Positions 4,272 to 17,691 of a stretch of DNA of 39,706 nt are shown here, piece after piece. The first letter of the stretch is position 1, and each line of letters begins with the position of its first letter. Source of the stretch: Anaerosomatales bacterium (GTDB lineage: Bacteria > Actinomycetota > Coriobacteriia > Anaerosomatales > SLCP01). The notes beneath the pieces were generated by a model, which did not search any database, was not told the origin of the DNA, and saw only the letters and a program-made list of their open reading frames with translations. Where the stretch lies: NCBI GenBank assembly GCA_029210645.1, contig JARGFT010000013.1:1-39706 (forward strand), given 5' to 3'. The translations under genes and the position numbers were made by a program.

Positions 4272-5330
4272 TCACCGGCCCCGGACAGCCAGGCGCTCGA
4301 GCTCGGCCGGGATCTCGTGTACCGGCAGCACGAGCGAGACCGCCTCGCGCTCGACCGCTGCCTTGGGCATCCCGAAGACCGTCGATGTCTCTTCGTCCTG
4401 TGCGATGGTAGTCGCGCCCGCATCGCGCATGAGCTTCAGCCCGCGCGCCCCGTCGGCCCCCATGCCTGTGAGGATCACGCCGATCGCCGCAGGACCACAC
4501 GAGTGGGCCACCGATTCGAGGAGCGTGTCCGCCGAGGGGACGTGAAGCTGACCCTCTTCGGGCTCGTGCAGGCAGAGGCGCCGCCGCTCGAGGGTGAGGT
4601 TCGCGCCCGTGGGTGCGAAGTACGCCACTCCCGGCAGGACCGTCATTCCCGCCCCGGCGACGACCACGCGCATCTGGCATCCGGCGTCGAGCCACGCCAC
4701 GAGCCCCGGTACGAATCCGTCCGCGATGTGCTGGGCCACGAGTATCGGAAGCGGGTAATCCGCCGGCAGGCGGCCGAGCACGCTCAGAAGCGCCGACGGC
4801 CCCCCGGTCGACGAGCCGATGGCGACGACCTCGGGCGGTATGGCGGTGGTGCCGGCGGAGTCGGCCCTCTCGACGGACGCCGACCGGGCTCCCCGTCTGC
4901 CGCGAAGGTGCGTGATCACCGGAACCCGGGAGAGGAGCTTGACGCGCCTGATGAGGTCGGCTGCGATCTCCTGCAGGTCGGCCCAGTCACGCGGCTCGGG
5001 CTTCCTCATCACCTCGAGCGCGCCGGCCTCCAGCGCATCGAACGCCCTGCCCACGCCCTGTCCGTAGACCGAGGAGGACACCACGAGGATGGGAACGGGG
5101 GTGTACGCCATGATGTGCTCGATGGCCGCAAGCCCGTCCATCCTCGGCATGTGGATGTCCATGGTGACCAGATCGGGACGCTCCGAGGCAACGAGCTCGA
5201 CTGCTTCCTGGCCGTCTGTGGCCACGCCGGCGACCTCGATCTGCGGATCGCTCGCCAGGATCTGCACGAGCATCTCGCGCGCGAGCGCAGAGTCATCGGC
5301 CACGACCACCCGTATGGTGCGTTGCGTCAC
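4272..5330 (-). CDS. cheB: Protein-glutamate methylesterase/deamidase CheB
   Basis: Removes methyl groups from chemoreceptor glutamates as adaptation feedback to CheA. The N-terminal receiver (about residues 1-125) has VVVADDS and the phospho-acceptor Asp58 in LVTMDIHMPRMDG. The C-terminal esterase has the catalytic Ser in IGSSTGGPSALL, His in AQHIADGF and Asp in GMGADGARGLKLM. I chose the GTG at 5330 because AGGGGG precedes it by five bases; the GTG two codons earlier would be too close to that site. It follows cheA by about 20 bases and ends the operon. Confidence 0.97.
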   Translation of the reverse strand: MTQRTIRVVVADDSALAREMLVQILASDPQIEVAGVATDGQEAVELVASERPDLVTMDIHMPRMDGLAAIEHIMAYTPVPILVVSSSVYGQGVGRAFDALEAGALEVMRKPEPRDWADLQEIAADLIRRVKLLSRVPVITHLRGRRGARSASVERADSAGTTAIPPEVVAIGSSTGGPSALLSVLGRLPADYPLPILVAQHIADGFVPGLVAWLDAGCQMRVVVAGAGMTVLPGVAYFAPTGANLTLERRRLCLHEPEEGQLHVPSADTLLESVAHSCGPAAIGVILTGMGADGARGLKLMRDAGATTIAQDEETSTVFGMPKAAVEREAVSLVLPVHEIPAELERLAVRGR

Positions 5331-5350
5331 GAGCACCCCCTGCCTGGCGG

Positions 5351-7630
5351 TCAGCGGACCAGCCTCTCGACGGTGTCGAGGAGGGTGTCCTGGTTGAAGA
5401 AGGACTTCGTGATGTAGGCATCGGCACCTGCCTCGATGCCCGCGGCCTTCTCCTCCTCGCGCTCGAGTGACGTCACGATGACCACCGGGAGATCGCCGAG
5501 CCTCGAGTCGCTCTTGATCGCACGCGTGAGTTCGAAACCGCTCATCCGCGGCATCTGCACGTCGGTCACGACCGCATCCGCTGCCAGGCCCTTGCGAAGG
5601 AGTCCCAGACCCTCGGCGCCGTCCATCGCGACCTCGACGGTGTAGCCGGCCGCCTCGAAGATCGACCGCTCGAGCTCACGCGTCGTGAACGAGTCCTCGC
5701 AGATGAGCACGGTGCGCGGCCTGTCGGACGCTGCCTCGGACTGCTTCGTCTCGGGCCGTTTGAAGCCGCCGCTACGAGCGTTCGCCATCAGGTCGGGCAC
5801 GTTGAGGATCGGAACGATCTCCCCTGCACCGAGGATGGTGACACCGGCGACGTTCTCGACCCTGCGCAGGTGGTTGCCGAGTGACTTGATGACGATCTGC
5901 TGTTCGCCGATGAACTGGTCGACGATGAAGCCGTAGCGGTGACCCGCGAAGCCGATCGTGACCACCGCAAACCGCTCGGGAACCGAACGGTCGCCGGTCA
6001 CGCCGAGCGCGTCGTCGAGGCGCACGAGCGGGTAGGTGCGCTTGCCACGCCTGAGCGCCTGACGGCCCTCCAACTCGAAGACCTCCGCCGGCTCGGCCAG
6101 CAACGTCTCTTCGACAGCCGTCGTCGGCAGGGCGTAGACGCGGTCGCCCACCCGTATCATGAGTGCGCGGATGATGGCGAGCGTCAGCGGGATGGTGAGC
6201 CGGAAGGTGGTGCCCTCGCCCCTCGTGCTGAAGACGTTCATGTCGCCCTTAAGCATATCGACGATGTACTCGCGCACGACGTCCATCCCGACACCGCGCC
6301 CCGAGACCTCGGTGATGATCGGGCTCGTGGAGAAGCCCTTCTCGAAGATGAGGAAGAGCACCTCGCGCTCGGACAGAGAGTCGGCCTCGGCCTGAGTGAC
6401 GTAGCCCTTGCGTACCGCCGTCGAGCGCACCTTCTCGACGTCCACCCCGGCGCCGTCGTCGGAGACCTCGATGACGATGTGGTCGCCCTCCGAACGGGCC
6501 GAGACGGTGATCGTCGCGGTGGCGGGCTTGCCGAGCTCCGCCCGGACCTGCGCGGGCTCGATACCGTGATCTACCGCGTTTCGCAGCAGGTGGATGAGCG
6601 GGTCGTTGATCGCTTCGAGGACCTTCTTGTCGAGTTCGGTCTCGCCCCCCTCGACCACGAGCTGCACGTCCTTGGCAAACGAGCGCGCGAGGTCGCGCAC
6701 CGCCCTGGGAAAGGTTGCAAAGACCGTCTCGACCGGCAGCATGCGGATCGCCATCCCGCGCTCCTGCAACTCGTTGATGACGAGTCCGCCGCGGGCGAGG
6801 TCCTCGGCGAGCTCGGCAACGACCGTCGCGCTCACCCTCTGCTCCGCGGCGAGGCGGCGCTCGAACGTGGCGATCGCGTCTGCGCGGCGCGCCGCATCCG
6901 CCCGCTCGTCACCGGTCGGCGATCTCTCGAGCAGGTTGCGAAGGACCGTCCACGCCTGCCACACGCCGCCCGCGCCGGAGCCGCCGACGCGCAGATCCTT
7001 GGCGCGCTGCTCGTACTTGACCTGCGAGATCACGACCTCGCTGATCAGGTTGAGCAGAGAGTCGACGTGGCCGGTGTTGACCCGGATCGTGTGCTTGGCC
7101 CGGCCGCCAAGGGGCTCCGCGCACGCAGACACGCTGCCGCTCTCGCGGTGAGCGCCGTTGCCGCCCCGTCCCGTCCCGGGCACGGGAACCTCCTCCCCGC
7201 TCGGCACAACATCTGCCTGCCCGCCGGGCGGGCCGTCCGGACACGCTTGCACAAGCGTTGTGAGCCGCTCCTGCAGCGCATTCAGATCGGCTGCGGGCGC
7301 CGCGTCCGTGCCGGCGATCTCGGTGAGGTGCACCACGGTGTCGAGCGCGTCGAAGAAGTGGTCGCTGATCGCGAGCGAGTGCTCGATCGTGCCGTCGCGC
7401 AGCGCGACCATCACGTCCTCGAGGCGGTGTGCGATGTCCGAGATCTCGACCAGCCCGACCATCCGCGAGGAACCCTTGAGGGTATGGGCATCCCGCAGCA
7501 TCTTGTCGATGAGCGCACCGTCGGAGGGTCGCTCCTCGAGGAGGATGACTCCCTCGTTCAGGCGCTGCAGGAGATCGGCCGCCTCCTCCTGGAACCGGCC
7601 GATGAATGCGCTGCGGTCGAACTGGGCCAT
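5351..7630 (-). CDS. cheA: CheA histidine kinase with C-terminal receiver (CheA-CheY hybrid)
   Basis: Core kinase of the array, 759 residues. The N-terminal Hpt domain carries the phosphorylated His49 in RDAHTLKGSSRMVG. A Gly/Pro-rich linker of about 60 residues follows, with no recognisable P2 domain. The dimerisation domain starts near 172 (VDSLLNLISEVVI). The ATPase motifs are LIHLLRNAVDHGIEP (N box), EVSDDGAGVD and SGRGVGMDVV (G boxes) and GEGTTFRLTIPLTLAI. A CheW-like domain comes next. The last 120 or so residues are a receiver (TVLICEDS, Asp in VVTDVQMPRMSG, Lys in AYITKSFF). This layout resembles FrzE or PilL-type kinases. GGGGAG precedes the ATG by seven bases, and the gene starts 29 bases after mcp. 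Confidence 0.97.
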   Translation of the reverse strand: MAQFDRSAFIGRFQEEAADLLQRLNEGVILLEERPSDGALIDKMLRDAHTLKGSSRMVGLVEISDIAHRLEDVMVALRDGTIEHSLAISDHFFDALDTVVHLTEIAGTDAAPAADLNALQERLTTLVQACPDGPPGGQADVVPSGEEVPVPGTGRGGNGAHRESGSVSACAEPLGGRAKHTIRVNTGHVDSLLNLISEVVISQVKYEQRAKDLRVGGSGAGGVWQAWTVLRNLLERSPTGDERADAARRADAIATFERRLAAEQRVSATVVAELAEDLARGGLVINELQERGMAIRMLPVETVFATFPRAVRDLARSFAKDVQLVVEGGETELDKKVLEAINDPLIHLLRNAVDHGIEPAQVRAELGKPATATITVSARSEGDHIVIEVSDDGAGVDVEKVRSTAVRKGYVTQAEADSLSEREVLFLIFEKGFSTSPIITEVSGRGVGMDVVREYIVDMLKGDMNVFSTRGEGTTFRLTIPLTLAIIRALMIRVGDRVYALPTTAVEETLLAEPAEVFELEGRQALRRGKRTYPLVRLDDALGVTGDRSVPERFAVVTIGFAGHRYGFIVDQFIGEQQIVIKSLGNHLRRVENVAGVTILGAGEIVPILNVPDLMANARSGGFKRPETKQSEAASDRPRTVLICEDSFTTRELERSIFEAAGYTVEVAMDGAEGLGLLRKGLAADAVVTDVQMPRMSGFELTRAIKSDSRLGDLPVVIVTSLEREEEKAAGIEAGADAYITKSFFNQDTLLDTVERLVR

Positions 7631-7659: not shown

Positions 7660-8892
7660 CTACTCGACGATCCGGAAGGCCGAGCCGACCTGGTTCGACT
7701 CCGTGGCGATCGCCGCAAGCTGCTCGGCCGTCGACGCCACCTGACGACCGCCCGCCGCAGTCTGCTGCGCGACCGCCGCGACCTCACGCATCGCACGCAC
7801 GACCTGGTCGGTGGCGCTCTTCTGCTGCTGAGTGGCAGCGCTGATCTCCTTGGCCGCGATGGTAGTGCGCTCGATCGTGTCGAGAATCTGCTCGAGGCTC
7901 TCACCGGTCGTGTGCGCCAGATCGACGCCGCCCTGGACCTCCGCGAGCTCCTGCTCGGTGGCGATCACGAGTTCGTTGGCCGCACCCTGGATCTCGGTCA
8001 TGATCGTCGAGATCTCGGCCGTGGAGTCGACCACCGACTCGGCGAGCTTGCGGATCTCGACCGCGACCACCGAGAAGCCCTTGCCGGCGTCGCCCGCACG
8101 GGCCGCCTCGATGGCGGCGTTGAGCGCGAGGATCTTCGTCTGATCAGCGATGCTGTTGATGATGGAGAGGACCTGCCCGATCTGCTGGCTGCGCTCGCCG
8201 AGCGTGAGGATGCGGTTGGCCGAGGACTGGCTGTGCGCCTTGATCTCCTCCATCGCCGAAAGCGTGTTCATGACGGCCTGCTGACCGCTCTCGGCGCTCC
8301 CGAGTGATGCCTCGGCCATCGCCACGACCTGGTTCGCGTTGTCCGCGATCTGCCGGTAGGTGGCGGCGAGTTCCTCCATGGTGGCGGTCGTCTCGCTGAT
8401 CGATGCGGCCTGCTCGGCAGCACCGGATGCCTGTTGCTCGGTAGCGGAGAGGATCTCGGTCGCCGACATCGAGAGGCGACGCGATGAGTCATGCGTCTGC
8501 CGGACGAGGTAGACCATCAGGTCGATCATCTGGTTGTACGACCGCGCGAGCACGCCGAACTCGTCCGGCGAGTCGATGTCGACCTTCTGGCCGATCTCCC
8601 CCTTGCACGCAGCGCGGACGCTTTCGACTACGAGTTCGAGCGGGCGCATGAAGCGGTTGCCGATGAGCACCAGCGCTGCGACCCACGCTGCAGCGATGCC
8701 GGCGAGCGCAACGGCCAGCGCGAGAATGCGATCGGCGTTCGACCAGGTGAGTACCGTCGAGACCTCCTGTCTGAACGAGGCGTAGACGATAAGCCACTGG
8801 ATCACGTTTACGAGCAACGCGAGCGCGACAGTCGCGGCAGAGTACTTATAGAGGAACTTGCTTCTGAATCCCCTCGTGAGCTTCGTTGCCAT
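7660..8892 (-). CDS. Methyl-accepting chemotaxis protein lacking a sensory domain
   Basis: Chemoreceptor of 410 residues. Two membrane segments lie at about residues 17-37 and 57-77, with a loop of roughly 15-20 residues between them, too short for a periplasmic ligand domain. A HAMP domain follows ([13 protein letters not shown] through [17 protein letters not shown]). The cytoplasmic coiled coil has the hairpin tip [20 protein letters not shown] and [16 protein letters not shown], which bind CheA and CheW. No C-terminal CheR-tethering pentapeptide is present; the end is SAFRIVE. I chose the ATG at 8892 because AGGAGG lies five bases upstream; the longer frame runs into cheW. With no ligand domain it probably responds to a protein partner or to membrane state. 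Confidence 0.95.
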
Positions 8893-8912
8893 CGTGTCCT
8901 CCTGATAGGTAC

Positions 8913-9458
8913 CTACTGTGCTCCTGCGCCGACCGGCTGCAGGATACGATCCACGTTCACAACGCTGATGAGCTTGTCGCCGAGGAATACCGTCGCGCTC
9001 ACGTATCCGGCCTGCGATTCCTGCAGGTGCGGAAGGGACGGCTCGACGCCGGATGCCGGTACATCGATGATTCCGCCGACCTCGCTCACGAGCACCGCCG
9101 TCGTGCACTGGTCGTTCTCGAGCACGATCGCCACCGAACCGTCGCCCACCGGGCCCCGGCCGATGCCCATGAGCGTGGCCGCATCGGTCACCGAGAGGAT
9201 CTCGCCCCGCACGCTCGCCACGCCCCGCACGAACCCCGGTGCGCAGGGTATCTCGGAGACCGCGACATCCTGGAGGATCTCCCTGATCGCCTCGACGCTC
9301 ACCGCGTACCAGTGGACGCCCACCCGGAAGACGAGCAGCGCGCTTCGCTGCAGGGCGGTGTCGCTTTCGACCCTGCGCGCCAGTGCCGCGGCGCGATGCC
9401 GCAGAATCGCCTCGGCCTCCCGACCGAGCCGGCTTCTACTCGCCGAGCCATCACTCAT
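8913..9458 (-). CDS. cheW: CheW-like adaptor protein, first-position paralogue beside mcp
   Basis: SH3-like CheW domain coupling receptor to CheA. The start at 9458 is set by AGGAGG with a seven-base spacer and overlaps the end of the upstream cheW by eight bases. About 50 residues of charged helical sequence ([19 protein letters not shown]) precede the domain, which begins near [13 protein letters not shown]. Conserved features include [20 protein letters not shown], matching the family segment around the receptor-binding loop. The product is 181 residues. The two CheW proteins differ clearly in sequence, so this is not a recent duplication. Confidence 0.93.
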
Positions 9459-9924
9459 CGCTCGCCTCCTGCCCTCCGCCGGGCAGGTTCGCCGGTGCCA
9501 GCAACGCATCCGCATCGAGCAGGAAGACGAGCTCGCCGTCGACCCGGTGAGCGCCACACATCCGGGAGGCCAGAGCGTGCGCTGCCGGAAGGGCGGCGGC
9601 GGCGTCGCCGGACAGCTCGACAACCGTGTCGACCGCATCGACGATGAGCGCGACCGGCCCGGCGGTGCTGGTGACGAAGATCATCGGGGTCTCCAGCGTA
9701 TAGGGCTCCGGCTGCAACCCGAGCAGAAGCCTCGCATCTACGACCGGGAGCACCTCACCCCGTACGTCGACCATGCCGACGATCATCGCGCTCTCATCGG
9801 GCATCTCCGCAAACGCGACGATCTTCTGGATCTCCCGCACCCGTTCGAGGGGCAAAGCGTATCGCTGGCCGTCGATACGAAACGTGACAGCCGTGGTGAG
9901 CGTGGTGTCGTGTGAGGCCTGCAT
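9451..9924 (-). CDS. cheW: CheW adaptor protein
   Basis: Single-domain CheW of 157 residues. VTFRIDGQRYALPLERVREI forms the first strands, MIVGMVDVRGEVLPVVDARLL is the conserved central segment, and VALIVDAVDTVVELS completes the barrel. It starts nine bases after the PilB-like gene and overlaps the next cheW, so it is cotranscribed. It probably forms the receptor-CheA core together with its neighbour; two CheW proteins could give ring variants with different receptors or partners. Confidence 0.95.
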   Translation of the reverse strand: MQASHDTTLTTAVTFRIDGQRYALPLERVREIQKIVAFAEMPDESAMIVGMVDVRGEVLPVVDARLLLGLQPEPYTLETPMIFVTSTAGPVALIVDAVDTVVELSGDAAAALPAAHALASRMCGAHRVDGELVFLLDADALLAPANLPGGGQEASDE

Positions 9925-9933
9925 CGGGGCCTG

Positions 9934-11775
9934 TCACTCCGCGAACCGCAGAACGCGGTTCAGCTCCTCGGCACTGACGAGGCCCTGCTCGACCTTGACG
10001 AGGCCCGACGCAAGCATCGGGCGCATCCCGGCGGCCTGTGCCCGCTCGGCAAGGCGTGCCGCCTGCGCACCTCCGGCGATCGCCGCGCGCACCGGCTCGG
10101 TGAAGGGAAGTACCTCGAACACACCGGTGACTCCACCGAAACCACTTCCATCACACGATGAGCAGCCACTCCCCGCAAGCGAGACCATCCCGGGGACCCC
10201 GCCGGGGATCCGGGCGGCAAGGGTGCTGTGCTCCTCGGCAGAGCAATCCGGACAGGTGGTGCGCACGAGCCGCTGACCCACGCCGAAGGTGAGCGCGGCG
10301 GCGAGACTCGTCGGCTCGGCCCCCAGGTCGAGCATCCGGCTGACACCGGCGACGATCCCGGCGCCGGAGAACGTCGCGATGACGAGCTTGCCCAGAGCGG
10401 CGGCCTCGATGGCGCGGTGCACGTCTTCGACACTCTGCATCGAATCGATCGCGACGACGTCGGTGTCCTGGCGCGCCCCGACCGCGAGATAGGACGCCGC
10501 TCCCACCGGCGAGCCGGGATCGACGAGCACCTGGGCGACCGCCGGGATCTCGTAGTCGATCGAGTGCTCAACCGAGTAGACGCTCTTGCCGACCGCAGCG
10601 GCGTGCGCGAGCAGCGCGTAGTAGGTCGCGCTGCGACCCCCCGCGACCGGAGCGCAAACGAGCAGGATGCCCCTGCCGCGCTCCACCATCGCGTGCAGGG
10701 CGCGGGTCTCAGCCTCGGAGACCCCCAGCGCGGGGAGATCGCGGGGCGATCCCGGGTCGGAGCCGAGTGAGACGACCAGTCGGTGCCCCGCGACGGTCGC
10801 GACCGCCGAGAGCGTGAGAACCAGCTCGCGCTCGCCGATGCGCGTGCGCAGGCGGCCGAGTGCGGGTCCGGCACCACGAATGGCGCCCGCCCTCACGTAC
10901 GACTTGAAGCCGTCGACCAAGCCCGCCTGCATCGACAGCGGGGCACTCGCGACCTGCTCGAGACGCCCGCCGATGCGGTAGACGAGGAAGAAGTCGTCCT
11001 TGTAGGGCAGCAGGTGGATCGCGGACGCACCCCGGTCGAGCGCGTCTGTGACGATGTCGGAGACGAGGACCGCCACCTTGCCCGCATCTGCGACCGCCAG
11101 CACGTCCAGGTCGATCGCGCTGTTCGAGACGTCGGGTGTCGGCTTGCCTTCCGGCTCTGCGGCGTCGCGATCGGTGTGAAACATCCCCTCCGGGGCCGGC
11201 TCGGCGATGAGGCTGCCGGTCTCGGGAGTGCCGGCCCCGGATGCAGGCTGCACGAGGCCCTCCTCGAGGGCGGGCGAGGCGGAGGGAATCTCGGGCGCAC
11301 CGGCAGGATCGGCGGGCGTGCCGTCCCGGGCGGGCTCGTAGTAGGTGGCGAGTGCCTGGGCCAGCGAGCCCGGATCGACCAGCACGGCCTCGAGCTCCAG
11401 GCCCAGTTCCGCACCGAGCGAGTCGAGCGCGAACACGCCCGCAGGGTCGCCTACCGCGACCGTCAGGATCCGGTCGATCTCGAACATCGGCAGGACCGAG
11501 TAGGCACGTGCCCGCTCGGCCGGTACGAGGGCAAGCGCCGACTCGTCGGGTGAGTAGCTCGAGAGGTCGACGTGCGGCACACCGAGCTCCCTTTCGAGAG
11601 CGAGCGCGATCTGGTCGGGCGCGATGACGCCGTGATCGCACAGCCACCGGCCGGCAGAGTCAGCGCCCGACATGCGGGCACGCTCGTCGGCGGCCGCGAC
11701 CTGCTCCGGCGTCAGGACGGCCATGCTCACGAGCGCATCGAGCACCCGCCGGCCAATGCTGGCTACCTCCACCAT
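9934..11775 (-). CDS. PilB/GspE-like protein with degenerate ATPase motifs (predicted pseudo-ATPase)
   Basis: About 613 residues. The N-terminal GspE_N/MshEN-like region (about 1-135, for example LTPEQVAAADERA and GVIAPDQIALALERELGV) is followed by a Pro/Ala/Gly-rich linker and then a PilB-type ATPase domain. Alignment by eye with PilB shows all four nucleotide motifs altered. Walker A GPTGSGKT is APVAGGRS (near 375), losing the Lys. The Asp box EDPVE is EHSID. Walker B MVGEIRD is AIDSMQS, losing the catalytic Glu. The His box STLHTNDA is ATFSGAGI. The zinc motif CPDC (near 508) and CSSC (near 540) is kept. It probably does not hydrolyse ATP and may scaffold or antagonise a type IV pilus motor. 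The ATG at 11775 has AGGAGG eight bases upstream; the ATG at 11781 is too close to it. Confidence 0.88.
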   Translation of the reverse strand: MVEVASIGRRVLDALVSMAVLTPEQVAAADERARMSGADSAGRWLCDHGVIAPDQIALALERELGVPHVDLSSYSPDESALALVPAERARAYSVLPMFEIDRILTVAVGDPAGVFALDSLGAELGLELEAVLVDPGSLAQALATYYEPARDGTPADPAGAPEIPSASPALEEGLVQPASGAGTPETGSLIAEPAPEGMFHTDRDAAEPEGKPTPDVSNSAIDLDVLAVADAGKVAVLVSDIVTDALDRGASAIHLLPYKDDFFLVYRIGGRLEQVASAPLSMQAGLVDGFKSYVRAGAIRGAGPALGRLRTRIGERELVLTLSAVATVAGHRLVVSLGSDPGSPRDLPALGVSEAETRALHAMVERGRGILLVCAPVAGGRSATYYALLAHAAAVGKSVYSVEHSIDYEIPAVAQVLVDPGSPVGAASYLAVGARQDTDVVAIDSMQSVEDVHRAIEAAALGKLVIATFSGAGIVAGVSRMLDLGAEPTSLAAALTFGVGQRLVRTTCPDCSAEEHSTLAARIPGGVPGMVSLAGSGCSSCDGSGFGGVTGVFEVLPFTEPVRAAIAGGAQAARLAERAQAAGMRPMLASGLVKVEQGLVSAEELNRVLRFAE

Positions 11776-11788
11776 CTGCATGGCCTCC

Positions 11789-12169
11789 TCAGCCCTCTGC
11801 CCTGGCAAGCTCGTCGGCGACCGCCTCGAGCAACCGTTCCGGCTCGACCGGCTTGGTCAGGTACTGGTCGGCTCCCGTGCGCAGTCCGGTGGCCATCGAC
11901 TGCTCCTCGGCTTTGGCCGTGAGCATGATGATCGGGATAGCCTTGTACTTTTGATCGAACTTCAGCAGACGGCACACCCGGTAGCCGTCGAGTTTGGGCA
12001 GCATGACATCGAGGAGGATGAGGTCGGGCTTGCCGTTGCGAGCCGACTCGAGAGCCTCCGCTCCGTCCTCGGCGGTAAGTACCTCGTATCCTGCAGATAC
12101 AAGGATCTCCTCGAGCATCGCGAGGATGGTCGGACTGTCGTCCACCGCGAGTATCCGCGCGCTCGCCAT
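11789..12169 (-). CDS. Single-domain response regulator (CheY/PilG-like)
   Basis: A receiver domain with no output domain, 126 residues. ILAVDDS holds the acidic metal site, Asp54 in LILLDVMLPKLDG is the phospho-acceptor, Thr in IIMLTAKAEE and Lys in YLTKPVEP complete the switch. GGAGG lies eight bases before the ATG at 12169. It ends 13 bases before the PilB-like gene, so the two are likely made together, and it is the probable diffusible output of CheA. Its partner could be a pilus motor; a flagellar switch is unsupported because no flagellar genes are visible. Confidence 0.95.
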   Translation of the reverse strand: MASARILAVDDSPTILAMLEEILVSAGYEVLTAEDGAEALESARNGKPDLILLDVMLPKLDGYRVCRLLKFDQKYKAIPIIMLTAKAEEQSMATGLRTGADQYLTKPVEPERLLEAVADELARAEG

Positions 12170-12241
12170 CCTGACTCCCTCCGTCTGTGACCGTGGGCAC
12201 ACTCCTCTCGATAGAGGTATCGCCCTTTGGAGGGTCCGGCT

Positions 12242-13627
12242 TTAGCCGCGTCCGCCTATTCGCTGGCACTGATCGAGGCTCCGTCGGCACGTCGCGATGA
12301 GGACTTCGGGCTCGAAGCCGCCGAGGAACTCCGACCAGGCACCGTCGGGCGAACGCTCGAGCGCACCGAGCGCGGCCTCGTACTCGCGACACGCCTCGGC
12401 ATGTTCTCCCCGCGAACGATGGAGATTGCCGAGGTTCAAATGCGCGAGAACGAAGTCGTCGTCCGCGCCGACCGTCCGGCGGAACTCCGCGATCGCATCG
12501 TCGGTCCGACCCGCCCGCAGATGGATCAGGCCGAGGATGTAGCGGGCGGCGGCGAGGGTCGGATCGATGCGCAACGCCTCGGTCAACCGCTCGAGCGCCG
12601 CATCGAAGTCACCGTTGTCGGCGAACGCTCGCGCGTCCCGAAGGTGAGCCGCCGCGTCGGAAGGTTCACTGGCGGGAGCTTCGGGCTCGACAGCGCGCAC
12701 GGGGACCTGAGGTGCCTCCGCAGCTGCGGCAGCGCGTGCCGGCCTCGGCGTCTGCGGGACCGACGCCCGCACCGCTGAAGTCGGTTTGCGGTGCAGGAAC
12801 ACGCCACCGACCTCGATCGTCTCGAAGCGGTTGCTGATGCCGGTCAGCGTCTCCGAATGCCCGATGAACAGGTAGCCGCCGGGATTCAGTCGCTCGAAGA
12901 GACTCTCGACCACACGGCGCGTAGACTCGATGCGGAAGTAGATGGTCACGTTGCGGCAGAAGATCACGTCCCAGTTGCCCATCAGCGCCGACGGGTGCGG
13001 CCCCTTGATCAGGTTCTGGTACCGGAAGTCGACGACGTCTCGCACCGGATCGGTCACGCGATGCCCGGTCGCGGTCGGCTCGAAGTAGCGGTCGACGCGG
13101 TCGCGGGGAACGTTGAGGAGCGCGCGGGGTGGGTATACGCCTGCCCTCGCCCGCTCGAGCGCGTGAGTCGACACATCGGTACCGAGCACCTCGGCATGAT
13201 GGCCGAGCGAATCGATGCCGGCGTCAAGCAGTGTCATGGCGATCGAGTAAGGCTCCTCGCCGGTGGAGCACCCGGCCGACCACGTCCGGAAGGAGCGAAC
13301 CGCCGGGCTGCGGGTGTCGAGGATCTCCGGGACGACGAACGTGCGCAACGCCTCGAACTGTGCCGGGAAGCGGAAAAAACTCGTCTCGTTGATGGTGATG
13401 AGGTTCATGAGCTCGCGGAACTCGGTCTCGTCTGCAACCAGGAGCTCGTAGTACCGATCGAGCGACTCGTGACCGAAGCGGGTCGCGCGGGTCATCAGCG
13501 AAATGCGCAGGGAGTCCGTGTGCCCTTCGTCGAGATGGATTCCCGAGTGTTCGTGGATGTACTCGCGGAAGCGCTCGCCCTGCTCCGCGGTCAGATCATG
13601 CTCCAGGCGTGTTTCGTGTCCGGACAT
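12242..13627 (-). CDS. cheR: Chemoreceptor methyltransferase CheR with C-terminal TPR repeats
   Basis: SAM-dependent methyltransferase that methylates receptor glutamates, countering CheB. It is 461 residues. The N-terminal CheR helical domain is followed by NETSFFRFPAQF, the SAM-binding WSAGCSTGEEPYSIA, the second motif GTDVSTHALERARAGVYPP and VIFCRNVTIYF. After about residue 275 an Ala/Pro-rich linker leads to two or three TPR-like repeats (AAARYILGLIHLRAGRTDDA, FVLAHLNLGNLHRSRGEHAE). CheR-TPR fusions are known from Frz-type and other alternative-function chemosensory systems, where the TPR part modulates receptor access. It begins two bases after the DUF4388 gene. Confidence 0.96.
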   Translation of the reverse strand: MSGHETRLEHDLTAEQGERFREYIHEHSGIHLDEGHTDSLRISLMTRATRFGHESLDRYYELLVADETEFRELMNLITINETSFFRFPAQFEALRTFVVPEILDTRSPAVRSFRTWSAGCSTGEEPYSIAMTLLDAGIDSLGHHAEVLGTDVSTHALERARAGVYPPRALLNVPRDRVDRYFEPTATGHRVTDPVRDVVDFRYQNLIKGPHPSALMGNWDVIFCRNVTIYFRIESTRRVVESLFERLNPGGYLFIGHSETLTGISNRFETIEVGGVFLHRKPTSAVRASVPQTPRPARAAAAAEAPQVPVRAVEPEAPASEPSDAAAHLRDARAFADNGDFDAALERLTEALRIDPTLAAARYILGLIHLRAGRTDDAIAEFRRTVGADDDFVLAHLNLGNLHRSRGEHAEACREYEAALGALERSPDGAWSEFLGGFEPEVLIATCRRSLDQCQRIGGRG

Positions 13628-13629
13628 GG

Positions 13630-14379
13630 CTACTCCGGAACGGTCGCCTCACCCGACGCCCCGACGACTTCTACCAGACCGGCGGCGCTCATGCCGTAGA
13701 GGACCTTTGCAGTCTCGAAGTCGTTGTAGCCGGTGAGCACGCTCAGTTCGGTGACGGACTTGCCCCCGTGCAGGTAGCACAGGAGCATCCACTCCTTCGG
13801 TTTCAGGTGGATCTCGATCGACTTCTCGCCCGGCGCTGCCGCCATCTCGAAGCGCGTGTCCATCGTCGGGATCTTCTCCCGTATGCGGTTCCACATCTCC
13901 AGGCGGCGTGACGCCTCCATGATGATGTTCTCGACCGACACCGAGATGCCGATGTCCTCCTCTTCGCACACCTCGTCCGGCTCGAATCGCAGATCCCCCG
14001 ATTCCCAGCGGAACAGGTCGAAGAGTGTGTCGTTGATCTGGTCCTGGATGAAGCCTTCGAGCACGCCAGCATCCAGATAGCCTTCGACCACGAGGATCTG
14101 CCCGAGCCGGCGAGCGGCCTTCTCCTTCTTCTGGATCTTCTGCAGACCGAGCGCCTGGCGCAGTTGCTTCTCCGAGATCACCTCGGACTTCACGAGACGC
14201 TGTCCGAGGGACTCACGGTTGTAGTTCGACGACGCGAAGAAGACGCGGCCCTTGCGGAAGCACACCTTGCCCTCGGCACCGGGGCGCGAGAGATAGAGCG
14301 TGCCGGTCTTGGCCCCGGCCGAGAGCAGCCGGAACATGTCGGCAAGCGAGAAGTCCTTGAGGTTGCCCTCGAGAGCCAC
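13630..14379 (-). CDS. DUF4388 protein with two MshEN-like motifs
   Basis: 249 residues and the first gene of the che operon. The N-terminus ALEGNLKDFSLADMFRLLSA and GKVCFRKGRVFFAS match DUF4388, a domain often linked to gliding and chemosensory proteins. Residues about 70-130 hold two similar segments, SLGQRLVKSEVISEKQL and RLGQILVVEGYLDAGVL, which fit the RLGxxLVxxGxI pattern of the c-di-GMP-binding MshEN domain. The C-terminal part looks like a small helix-turn-helix-type fold (LLCYLHGGKSVTELSVLTG). I chose the GTG at 14379 because AGGAGG lies five bases upstream and the domain begins there; an ATG about 48 bases upstream lacks a site. Ligand binding is inference. Confidence 0.85.
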   Translation of the reverse strand: MALEGNLKDFSLADMFRLLSAGAKTGTLYLSRPGAEGKVCFRKGRVFFASSNYNRESLGQRLVKSEVISEKQLRQALGLQKIQKKEKAARRLGQILVVEGYLDAGVLEGFIQDQINDTLFDLFRWESGDLRFEPDEVCEEEDIGISVSVENIIMEASRRLEMWNRIREKIPTMDTRFEMAAAPGEKSIEIHLKPKEWMLLCYLHGGKSVTELSVLTGYNDFETAKVLYGMSAAGLVEVVGASGEATVPE

Positions 14380-14461
14380 GAACGCCTCCTGGCAGGTCAC
14401 GAACGTACACAACAGGACGCACGGCACATGCTGAAGCGGCGCACGTCACGCGCCCGCGACA

Positions 14462-16059: not shown

Positions 16060-17691
16060 TTACGAAGGCGACACCCTCGGCTCGCCGACGTCGAATCCCT
16101 GGACGAGGCCGAATCCGGCCTGCCGCACGCGTTTCATCACCGCCGGGTCCTCGATCCTCGATGCGACCGCTGTCAGCCCGTGCGACTCGACGACCCGCCT
16201 GATCGTCTCGAGGTAGCCCGGGTCCCCGCCCTGTCCGGTGAGCCCCACGAGGGTCGTGACGTCGAGTTTGACCTGGTCGAAGGAGAACTCCTGCGTGAGC
16301 GACAACCCACGCTCCCCCGCCCCGAAACGGTCGAGCACAACGGTGCACCCGAGTGCCTGGAACCGGTCGAGCCACGCCCGCATCGAACTGCGGTGAGCAG
16401 CCGCGTCGGCCTCGGCCACCTCGAACAACAACCGCGATGCATCGACTCTCGTCTCGGCCAGCCGCAGCTGAATGTGCTCCGGGAGCGTGCGGTCGAGCAG
16501 GTCCGAAGCACTCAGGTTCAGGGAGACTCGGGCCGTGGCGATGGTCGCCATGGCCTCGGTGACCTCGTCGACGACCAACCGGGTCAACCGCGGCATGAGT
16601 CCGAGCCGTTCGGTGGTCGAGAGAAACGACGAGGGCATCTCGAGCTCTCCGGACTCCCCGACCATCCGCACCAGTGACTCGAAGTAGGTAGTCTGCCCGT
16701 CGGAGAGGCGTACGACAGGCTGATAGTGAACGCGGAACCGGCGCGCGTTGAGAGCTTCGCGGACCCTGGCGGCAAGCCGGGAGTCGTACATGCCAGCCGA
16801 CGCGGTTCCGGTCTCCCCCACCGCCAACCGGTTGCGCCCGGACTCCTTGGCCTCGTAGAGTGCCGCGTCAGCCGCATCCGCGAGCGTGTGAATCTCCTCG
16901 CTGCCGTCGAAAGAGACGATTCCGCCGCTGAGCCCCAGGTCGAACGCGCGAGCATCGGCTACGAAGGGTTCGTCGGCAGCGGCACTGCGCATGCGCTCGC
17001 CGATCTCGATCGCCTCGTCGAGCGTCGCAGCGTCGAGCACGACACCGAACTCGTCGCCCCCGACACGCGCGAGCATGTCACCCGCGCGGACGTGTGTCTG
17101 CAGCAGCAACGCGAAGTTGACGAGCGCCTGGTCTCCCTGATTGTGGCCGAGCGCGTCGTTGTAGGACTTGAGGTTGTCGATGTCGATCATCAATAGCGCG
17201 CCGGGCTTTCCGCGCCGCGCACGGGCCATCGCGCGGACCAGGGCGTCGTCGAACATGCGACGGTTGGGAAGGCCGGTGAGCGGGTCGTGAGTGGCCATGA
17301 AGGCGAGCTGAGCTTCCCGGCGGCGGATCTCGCTGATGTCGCTCACGACGCAGAGGGCGACCGCGTCAGGCAGCGAGGGCACATCGACCGGCCCGCACCG
17401 GCCGGCGAAGGACCGCTGCTGGCCGTCGGCGTCGCGCACCGCTATCTCGATGTCCGCGGGCAAGCCCGAGGCCACCGCCTCCCGGAGGTGCGCATGCACG
17501 TTGCGCTCGGCCTCGTCCACCGCCGGTGCGGTCCCGTTGACCCCGTGCGGTTGCAGGAGGGAGTCCCAGGATGCATTGCCCTTCAGAACGGAGCCGTCCG
17601 CGCCGCAGAGGCACGCGGGAACAGGCAGACTATCGAGGCGAGCCGGGTCGCCGTGCGGTCGTTCGGGGATGTCCGGGGTTCGGTCGGCCAT
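16060..17691 (-). CDS. GGDEF-EAL protein: probable diguanylate cyclase with degenerate EAL half
   Basis: About 543 residues. A PAS-like N-terminus (to about 150) precedes the GGDEF domain (HDPLTGLPNRRMFDDAL), with the active site VGGDEFG intact and an inhibitory I site RAGD exactly five residues before it. The EAL half reads ESL in place of EAL, keeps LNLSASDL and FEVAEAD, but has LDRFGAG where DDFGTG is expected (one catalytic Asp becomes Arg) and ASRIED for AEGVE, losing a general-base region Glu. It should make c-di-GMP and probably does not degrade it; the EAL part may bind c-di-GMP or a protein. The ATG at 17691 has GGAAGG seven bases upstream. No transmembrane segment is seen. Confidence 0.9.
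   Translation of the reverse strand: MADRTPDIPERPHGDPARLDSLPVPACLCGADGSVLKGNASWDSLLQPHGVNGTAPAVDEAERNVHAHLREAVASGLPADIEIAVRDADGQQRSFAGRCGPVDVPSLPDAVALCVVSDISEIRRREAQLAFMATHDPLTGLPNRRMFDDALVRAMARARRGKPGALLMIDIDNLKSYNDALGHNQGDQALVNFALLLQTHVRAGDMLARVGGDEFGVVLDAATLDEAIEIGERMRSAAADEPFVADARAFDLGLSGGIVSFDGSEEIHTLADAADAALYEAKESGRNRLAVGETGTASAGMYDSRLAARVREALNARRFRVHYQPVVRLSDGQTTYFESLVRMVGESGELEMPSSFLSTTERLGLMPRLTRLVVDEVTEAMATIATARVSLNLSASDLLDRTLPEHIQLRLAETRVDASRLLFEVAEADAAAHRSSMRAWLDRFQALGCTVVLDRFGAGERGLSLTQEFSFDQVKLDVTTLVGLTGQGGDPGYLETIRRVVESHGLTAVASRIEDPAVMKRVRQAGFGLVQGFDVGEPRVSPS

Follow-up and report, generated by a model that had tools for sequence, protein, structure and literature searches.

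A PilB homologue in a chemosensory operon

The window analysed here is the 39,706-nucleotide contig C4 of a 2-Mb Anaerosomatales genome. Its minus strand carries, at positions 9934–11781, a gene for a homologue of the PilB/GspE ATPases, which we call pPilB (pseudo-PilB). Translation starts at an ATG at 11775 or 11781 and stops at 9934–9936, giving a protein of 613–615 aa, and the GGAGG ribosome site overlaps the stop codon of the CheY-like gene upstream. The surrounding operon, all of it on the minus strand, encodes in order a DUF4388 protein (13630–14427), a CheR methyltransferase with TPR repeats at its C-terminus (12242–13627), a stand-alone CheY-like response regulator (RR; 11789–12202), pPilB, two CheW proteins (CheW 1, 9451–9924; CheW 2, 8913–9581), a chemoreceptor (MCP; 7660–8901), a CheA with a receiver domain at its C-terminus (5351–7630) and CheB (4272–5336). 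The DD/D/T/K residues of the RR are intact, and its gene lies directly upstream of pPilB in every locus that covers both. CheW 2 has a C-terminal CheW domain and an uncertain start codon. The chemoreceptor consists of a HAMP and an MCP signalling domain, with no ligand-binding domain among its Pfam matches. Further upstream, a PAS-GGDEF-EAL protein is encoded on the same strand (16060–17691); a related gene adjoins the operon in some loci only. Membership of one operon with CheA, CheW, CheR, CheB, MCP and RR, together with the co-inheritance described below, identifies pPilB as a chemosensory component.

A preliminary description of the locus had named 9934–11775 as a PilB/GspE homologue flanked by a CheY-like gene on one side and two cheW genes on the other. 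The neighbours are as described, with the RR upstream and both CheW genes downstream, and profile search and structure prediction agree on the homology. Pfam matches are T2SSE (4e-48) and MshEN (8e-16). An AlphaFold2 model built on the alignment of 54 orthologues has a pLDDT of 86; its core matches the solved PilB structure 5zfr_C with a Z score of 34.2 (rmsd 5.9, 379 residues aligned; VIA-align), and its N-domain matches MshE (5htl) with a Z score of 12.4. The MshEN (N1D) domain (11332–11763) is followed by a variable linker that is predicted to be disordered (11131–11328; residues 152–217, pLDDT <50) and then by an N2D/RecA-like ATPase fold without catalytic residues. This domain order and the zinc site are those of the PilB/GspE extension ATPases of type IV pili and type II secretion (Geobacter and Thermus PilB, Vibrio GspE), whereas pPilB lacks their Walker A Lys, arginine fingers, catalytic Glu and His-box His, and its gene stands in a che operon rather than in a pil or gsp locus. 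Misassembly or a frameshift was ruled out by the open frame in 54 distinct orthologues. Plasmid carriage was likewise rejected, as PLSDB gave no match at E 1e-60.

Lost and retained residues

In order to define the losses, 54 distinct pPilB sequences from the order were aligned and compared with 61 intact PilBs, using the residue numbers of Geobacter PilB (PMC5424180) mapped onto the alignment. R271, R286, E395, T411, H413 and H420 are absent from all 54 and present in all 61. At the arginine-finger positions the window has Thr (R271; 10813–10815) and Ser (R286; 10768–10770). The former Walker A, APVAGGRS (10630–10653), departs from the GxxxxGK[ST] pattern, and where its Lys would stand, all 54 copies have R, A, S, G or C. 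Intact PilBs have an atypical Walker B in which G394 and E395 (GE) are both kept (61/61); the corresponding pPilB sequence is DVVAIDSMQ (10435–10461), where Gly394 has become Asp, in every order copy and in 58/58 of the pseudo-PilB clade, and the catalytic Glu has given way to G, S, P, A or T. The former His box, TFSGAG (10357–10374), has lost His420 throughout.

The preliminary description had read the Walker A, Walker B and His box as stripped of their key residues, which holds at the quoted sites and in all 54 copies. Its claim that the Asp box was lost is only partly right: the 'DP' of 'EDP' is gone from EHSIDYE (10549–10569), but an acid persists at the position of the Mg-binding Glu (E357), with Asp in the window and either E or D across 51 of the 54 orthologues. 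The tetracysteine zinc motif of the PilB/GspE clade and the N-terminal domain, both said to be kept, are present; the cysteines C510, C513, C540 and C543, in two CxxC pairs (10243–10254 and 10153–10164), are invariant among orthologues. A lone decaying copy among intact relatives, one case that would have told against the description, is excluded, as all 54 aligned copies are degenerate. The loss of the arginine fingers, the dismantled c-di-GMP motif and the intact and half-way forms found elsewhere go beyond that description.

Several other positions have been retained. R257 and R455, which make open-interface contacts in Geobacter PilB (PMC5424180), and the pore residue E400 are largely kept in pPilBs, and D446, E405 and E411 are invariant in the former active site. 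Overall, pPilBs are only about 28–31% identical to the intact PilBs encoded in their own genomes. Judged by its sequence, pPilB is a pseudo-ATPase.

The MshEN receptor domain binds c-di-GMP through two 24-residue motifs, RLGxxLVxxG...LxxxLxxQ, and imperfect motifs may still bind (PMC5013675). While pPilB shares the MshEN fold, its motif is broken: G11 is Leu in 47/54, Q32 is Ala in 44/54, Q61 is Glu in 43/54, and R38 is lost. The motif is largely kept in the DUF4388 protein that is encoded by the first gene of the operon; it is near-intact in the window, where it was read by eye, and in 17 loci by a strict pattern. The motif pair of the DUF4388 protein has a longer spacer and is conserved in relatives. 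c-di-GMP could feed into the pathway through this protein. The retention of the motor fold in pPilB, without the residues for splitting ATP or binding c-di-GMP, suggests a motor rebuilt as a signalling part.

Conservation within the order and relatives outside the class

Of 69 genomes surveyed in the order (Coriobacteriia), 58 have an orthologue of pPilB; they represent 36 of 40 genera and every one of the 16 families. The gene context was examined at 40 loci of the order, and in each of them pPilB lies between the RR and cheW genes wherever the sequence covers both neighbours; at one locus (L085) the contig ends inside the pPilB gene. Eight closely related pairs gave dN/dS values of 0.03–0.13 over the ATPase fold, so that the selection supposed in the preliminary description is real: purifying selection on pPilB is strong. 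Fifty-six genomes have both the operon CheA and pPilB, and 10 have neither; the remaining three, which are fragmented or incomplete assemblies, are discordant (Fisher p 2e-9, without correction for kinship).

The degenerate paralogue occurs together with an intact PilB in 58/58 genomes with pPilB. Two order genomes without PilB also lack pPilB, which is a weak association (p 0.02) as there are only two such genomes. The flagellar marker FlhA was found in none of the 69 order genomes, and the CheW domains of the source genome occur only in the pPilB operon; a flagellar output is therefore excluded, as far as the marker tells. The members of the order that have been cultured were reported to be rods that are non-motile and bear pili-like appendages (PMC9686372). 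Twitching is therefore not documented, and we count this against the explanation preferred below. We infer a link between pPilB and pili from the descent of pPilB from PilB, the co-occurrence with intact PilB and the lack of flagella; an output through exopolysaccharide or c-di-GMP would fit equally.

The pilus locus of the source genome, on contig C44, encodes a prepilin peptidase, PilC and two intact PilBs. Between the two PilBs (L098:8783–12434, minus strand) lie genes for a small Ras-like GTPase (L098:9395–9937) and a Roadblock/LC7 protein (L098:11736–12434). This pair resembles MglA/MglB and could be an alternative target of the chemosensory operon, a possibility that we note as a lead. 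The source genome also encodes, on contig C11 (L005), a PilT-type ATPase that carries a receiver-like domain at its N-terminus, another apparent link between a response regulator and a pilus motor. Many order genomes (for example L191–L197) carry a third clade of intact PilB, about 43–48% identical to PilB1 and apart from the pilus-locus pair; two copies were inspected for their gene context, and neither had che genes next to it.

A phylum-wide profile search, together with a search with CheA, identified informative genomes outside the class; coverage of other phyla consisted of Pseudomonadota PilBs from one contig scan. Four of these genomes (G422, G364, G518 and G478) have the same gene order with a half-way PilB; G364 and G518 belong to one family, and the operon of G518 is truncated at its start. 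The half-way proteins (L113:8263–10155, L121:5935–7626, L189:478–2196 and L190:3719–5500) keep the GKT of Walker A and have a Walker B of the form hhhhDE, with 'DE' replacing 'GE'; the His box, T411 and the arginine fingers are gone. It is possible that this 'DE' is a re-invented standard ASCE Walker B that followed the loss of the arginine fingers. In another genome outside the class, G412, the che operon encodes CheR, a related RR and, as its last product, an intact PilB; in G200 an intact PilB adjoins a related RR. Elsewhere, members of one family (f23; G420 and G242, loci L115 and L116) encode a PilB whose C-terminus is fused to a zinc-ribbon-like and a receiver domain.

In a tree computed without the motif columns, all degenerate PilBs form one clade (100/100) apart from the intact PilBs, and with midpoint rooting the PilBs of G412 and G200 branch next to it. 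Convergent clustering of motif-less proteins was ruled out, since the clade stays at 100/100 once the motif columns are removed. From this one tree and a handful of genomes we infer, as the simplest sequence of events, that PilB was first recruited beside the RR, that subunit coupling was lost next, and that ATP binding went last.

Candidate roles of pPilB

Signalling between chemosensory pathways and type IV pili is partly understood, and the known examples are mostly Gram-negative. We know of no pseudo-PilB in the Pil-Chp cluster of Pseudomonas. As we propose for the operon studied here, a Che-like pathway is tied to type IV pili in Pil-Chp (PilG/PilH, ChpA, PilJ), and its output runs via PilG and CyaB (PMC11656802). 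By analogy, the nearest precedent for pPilB is PilB of Myxococcus xanthus, where a PilB fold also takes part in chemosensory signalling. The Walker A mutant K327A is ATPase-dead and assembles no pili yet signals upstream of the Dif chemosensory proteins, and nucleotide-free PilB has been proposed as the signalling state (PMC5544727). The natural loss of Walker A in pPilB parallels K327A. In M. xanthus, however, one PilB is both motor and signal, whereas here the chemosensory operon encodes a separate, dedicated copy that is catalytically dead. In the literature covered, which included few subscription papers, no described case joins a chemosensory system, PilB and a pseudo-ATPase.

The explanation that we favour, at slightly better than even confidence, is that a type IV pilus extension ATPase (PilB), recruited to a place next to the CheY-like gene of a che operon, was converted into a signalling protein without motor function, which links the Che pathway with the pilus machine. 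The sequences show that the whole clade has lost the residues through which neighbouring PilB subunits influence each other (arginine fingers, T411, His box). The order of Coriobacteriia has additionally lost the Walker A Lys, the catalytic Glu and the c-di-GMP motif, while the fold, the zinc site and several positions at the interface or pore (R257, R455 and E400) are retained. pPilB would then work through partner binding and not ATP turnover. As a PilB that never carries a nucleotide, it would pair with the CheY-like regulator encoded next to it, the CheW/CheA array or both, and would couple the Che pathway to PilC and the intact PilB. The signal might run either from CheY-P to the pilus motor or from the state of the pilus to the array, as has been reported for PilB and Dif in M. 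xanthus. A non-motor signalling partner is favoured because pPilB resembles a natural, dedicated nucleotide-free PilB of the Myxococcus type. A fuller version, to which we give somewhat less than even weight, is that the motor ATPase has been split into an intact PilB and a dead signalling PilB that is the cognate partner of the CheY-like regulator; array and pilus would talk via this pseudo-motor, and the intact, half-way and dead stages would all be extant.

Alternatively, pPilB could be a poison or regulatory subunit that joins intact PilB in mixed hexamers and stalls or tunes extension on the command of the Che pathway. The preliminary description had suggested a non-hydrolysing partner of this kind, through which CheA output might act by joining or blocking a hexameric pilus motor, or else an array scaffold. 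This is consistent with the full PilB/GspE fold, with the retention of R257, R455 and the pore residue E400 while the arginine fingers that serve a neighbour are gone, and with the constant presence of an intact PilB. However, the low identity to the same-genome PilBs fits poorly with mixed assembly, and the trans-acting R271, R286, T411, H413 and H420 are lost clade-wide, even where the Walker A Lys and catalytic Glu are kept, which makes such a subunit unlikely.

We consider it rather improbable that pPilB is an array scaffold or adaptor without pilus contact, in which the old motor fold organises CheA, CheW and the RR. Such a role agrees with a gene that is always placed between those for the RR and CheW 1 and is found only with the CheA of this operon, but leaves unexplained the intact PilB after the RR in G412 and, by a weak test, the restriction of pPilB to genomes with an intact PilB.

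A non-canonical nucleotide sensor, in which the Gly394-to-Asp change restores an acidic Walker B and the pocket binds nucleotide or Mg as a switch, is a poor candidate. The Asp at 394 throughout the clade, the GKT and hhhhDE of the relatives outside the order and the frequent acid at the E357 position point towards it; against it, the Walker A Lys and the catalytic Glu of the order's copies have been replaced inconsistently, and no arginine finger is left. Finally, the idea of a decaying duplicate without function, to which the missing catalytic residues might lead, is refuted by the dN/dS values and the orthologue survey, with copies in all 16 families, a fixed operon position and new residues that are invariant, and we attach practically no weight to it.

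As a conserved protein tied by gene order to a CheY-like regulator, pPilB is a candidate for the missing link between array and pilus in flagellum-less Actinomycetota. The series of intact, half-way and dead forms makes the conversion of a motor into a signalling protein testable. Should our preferred explanation hold, it would show that a separate protein is able to carry the role in signalling that has been proposed for Myxococcus PilB in its nucleotide-free form.
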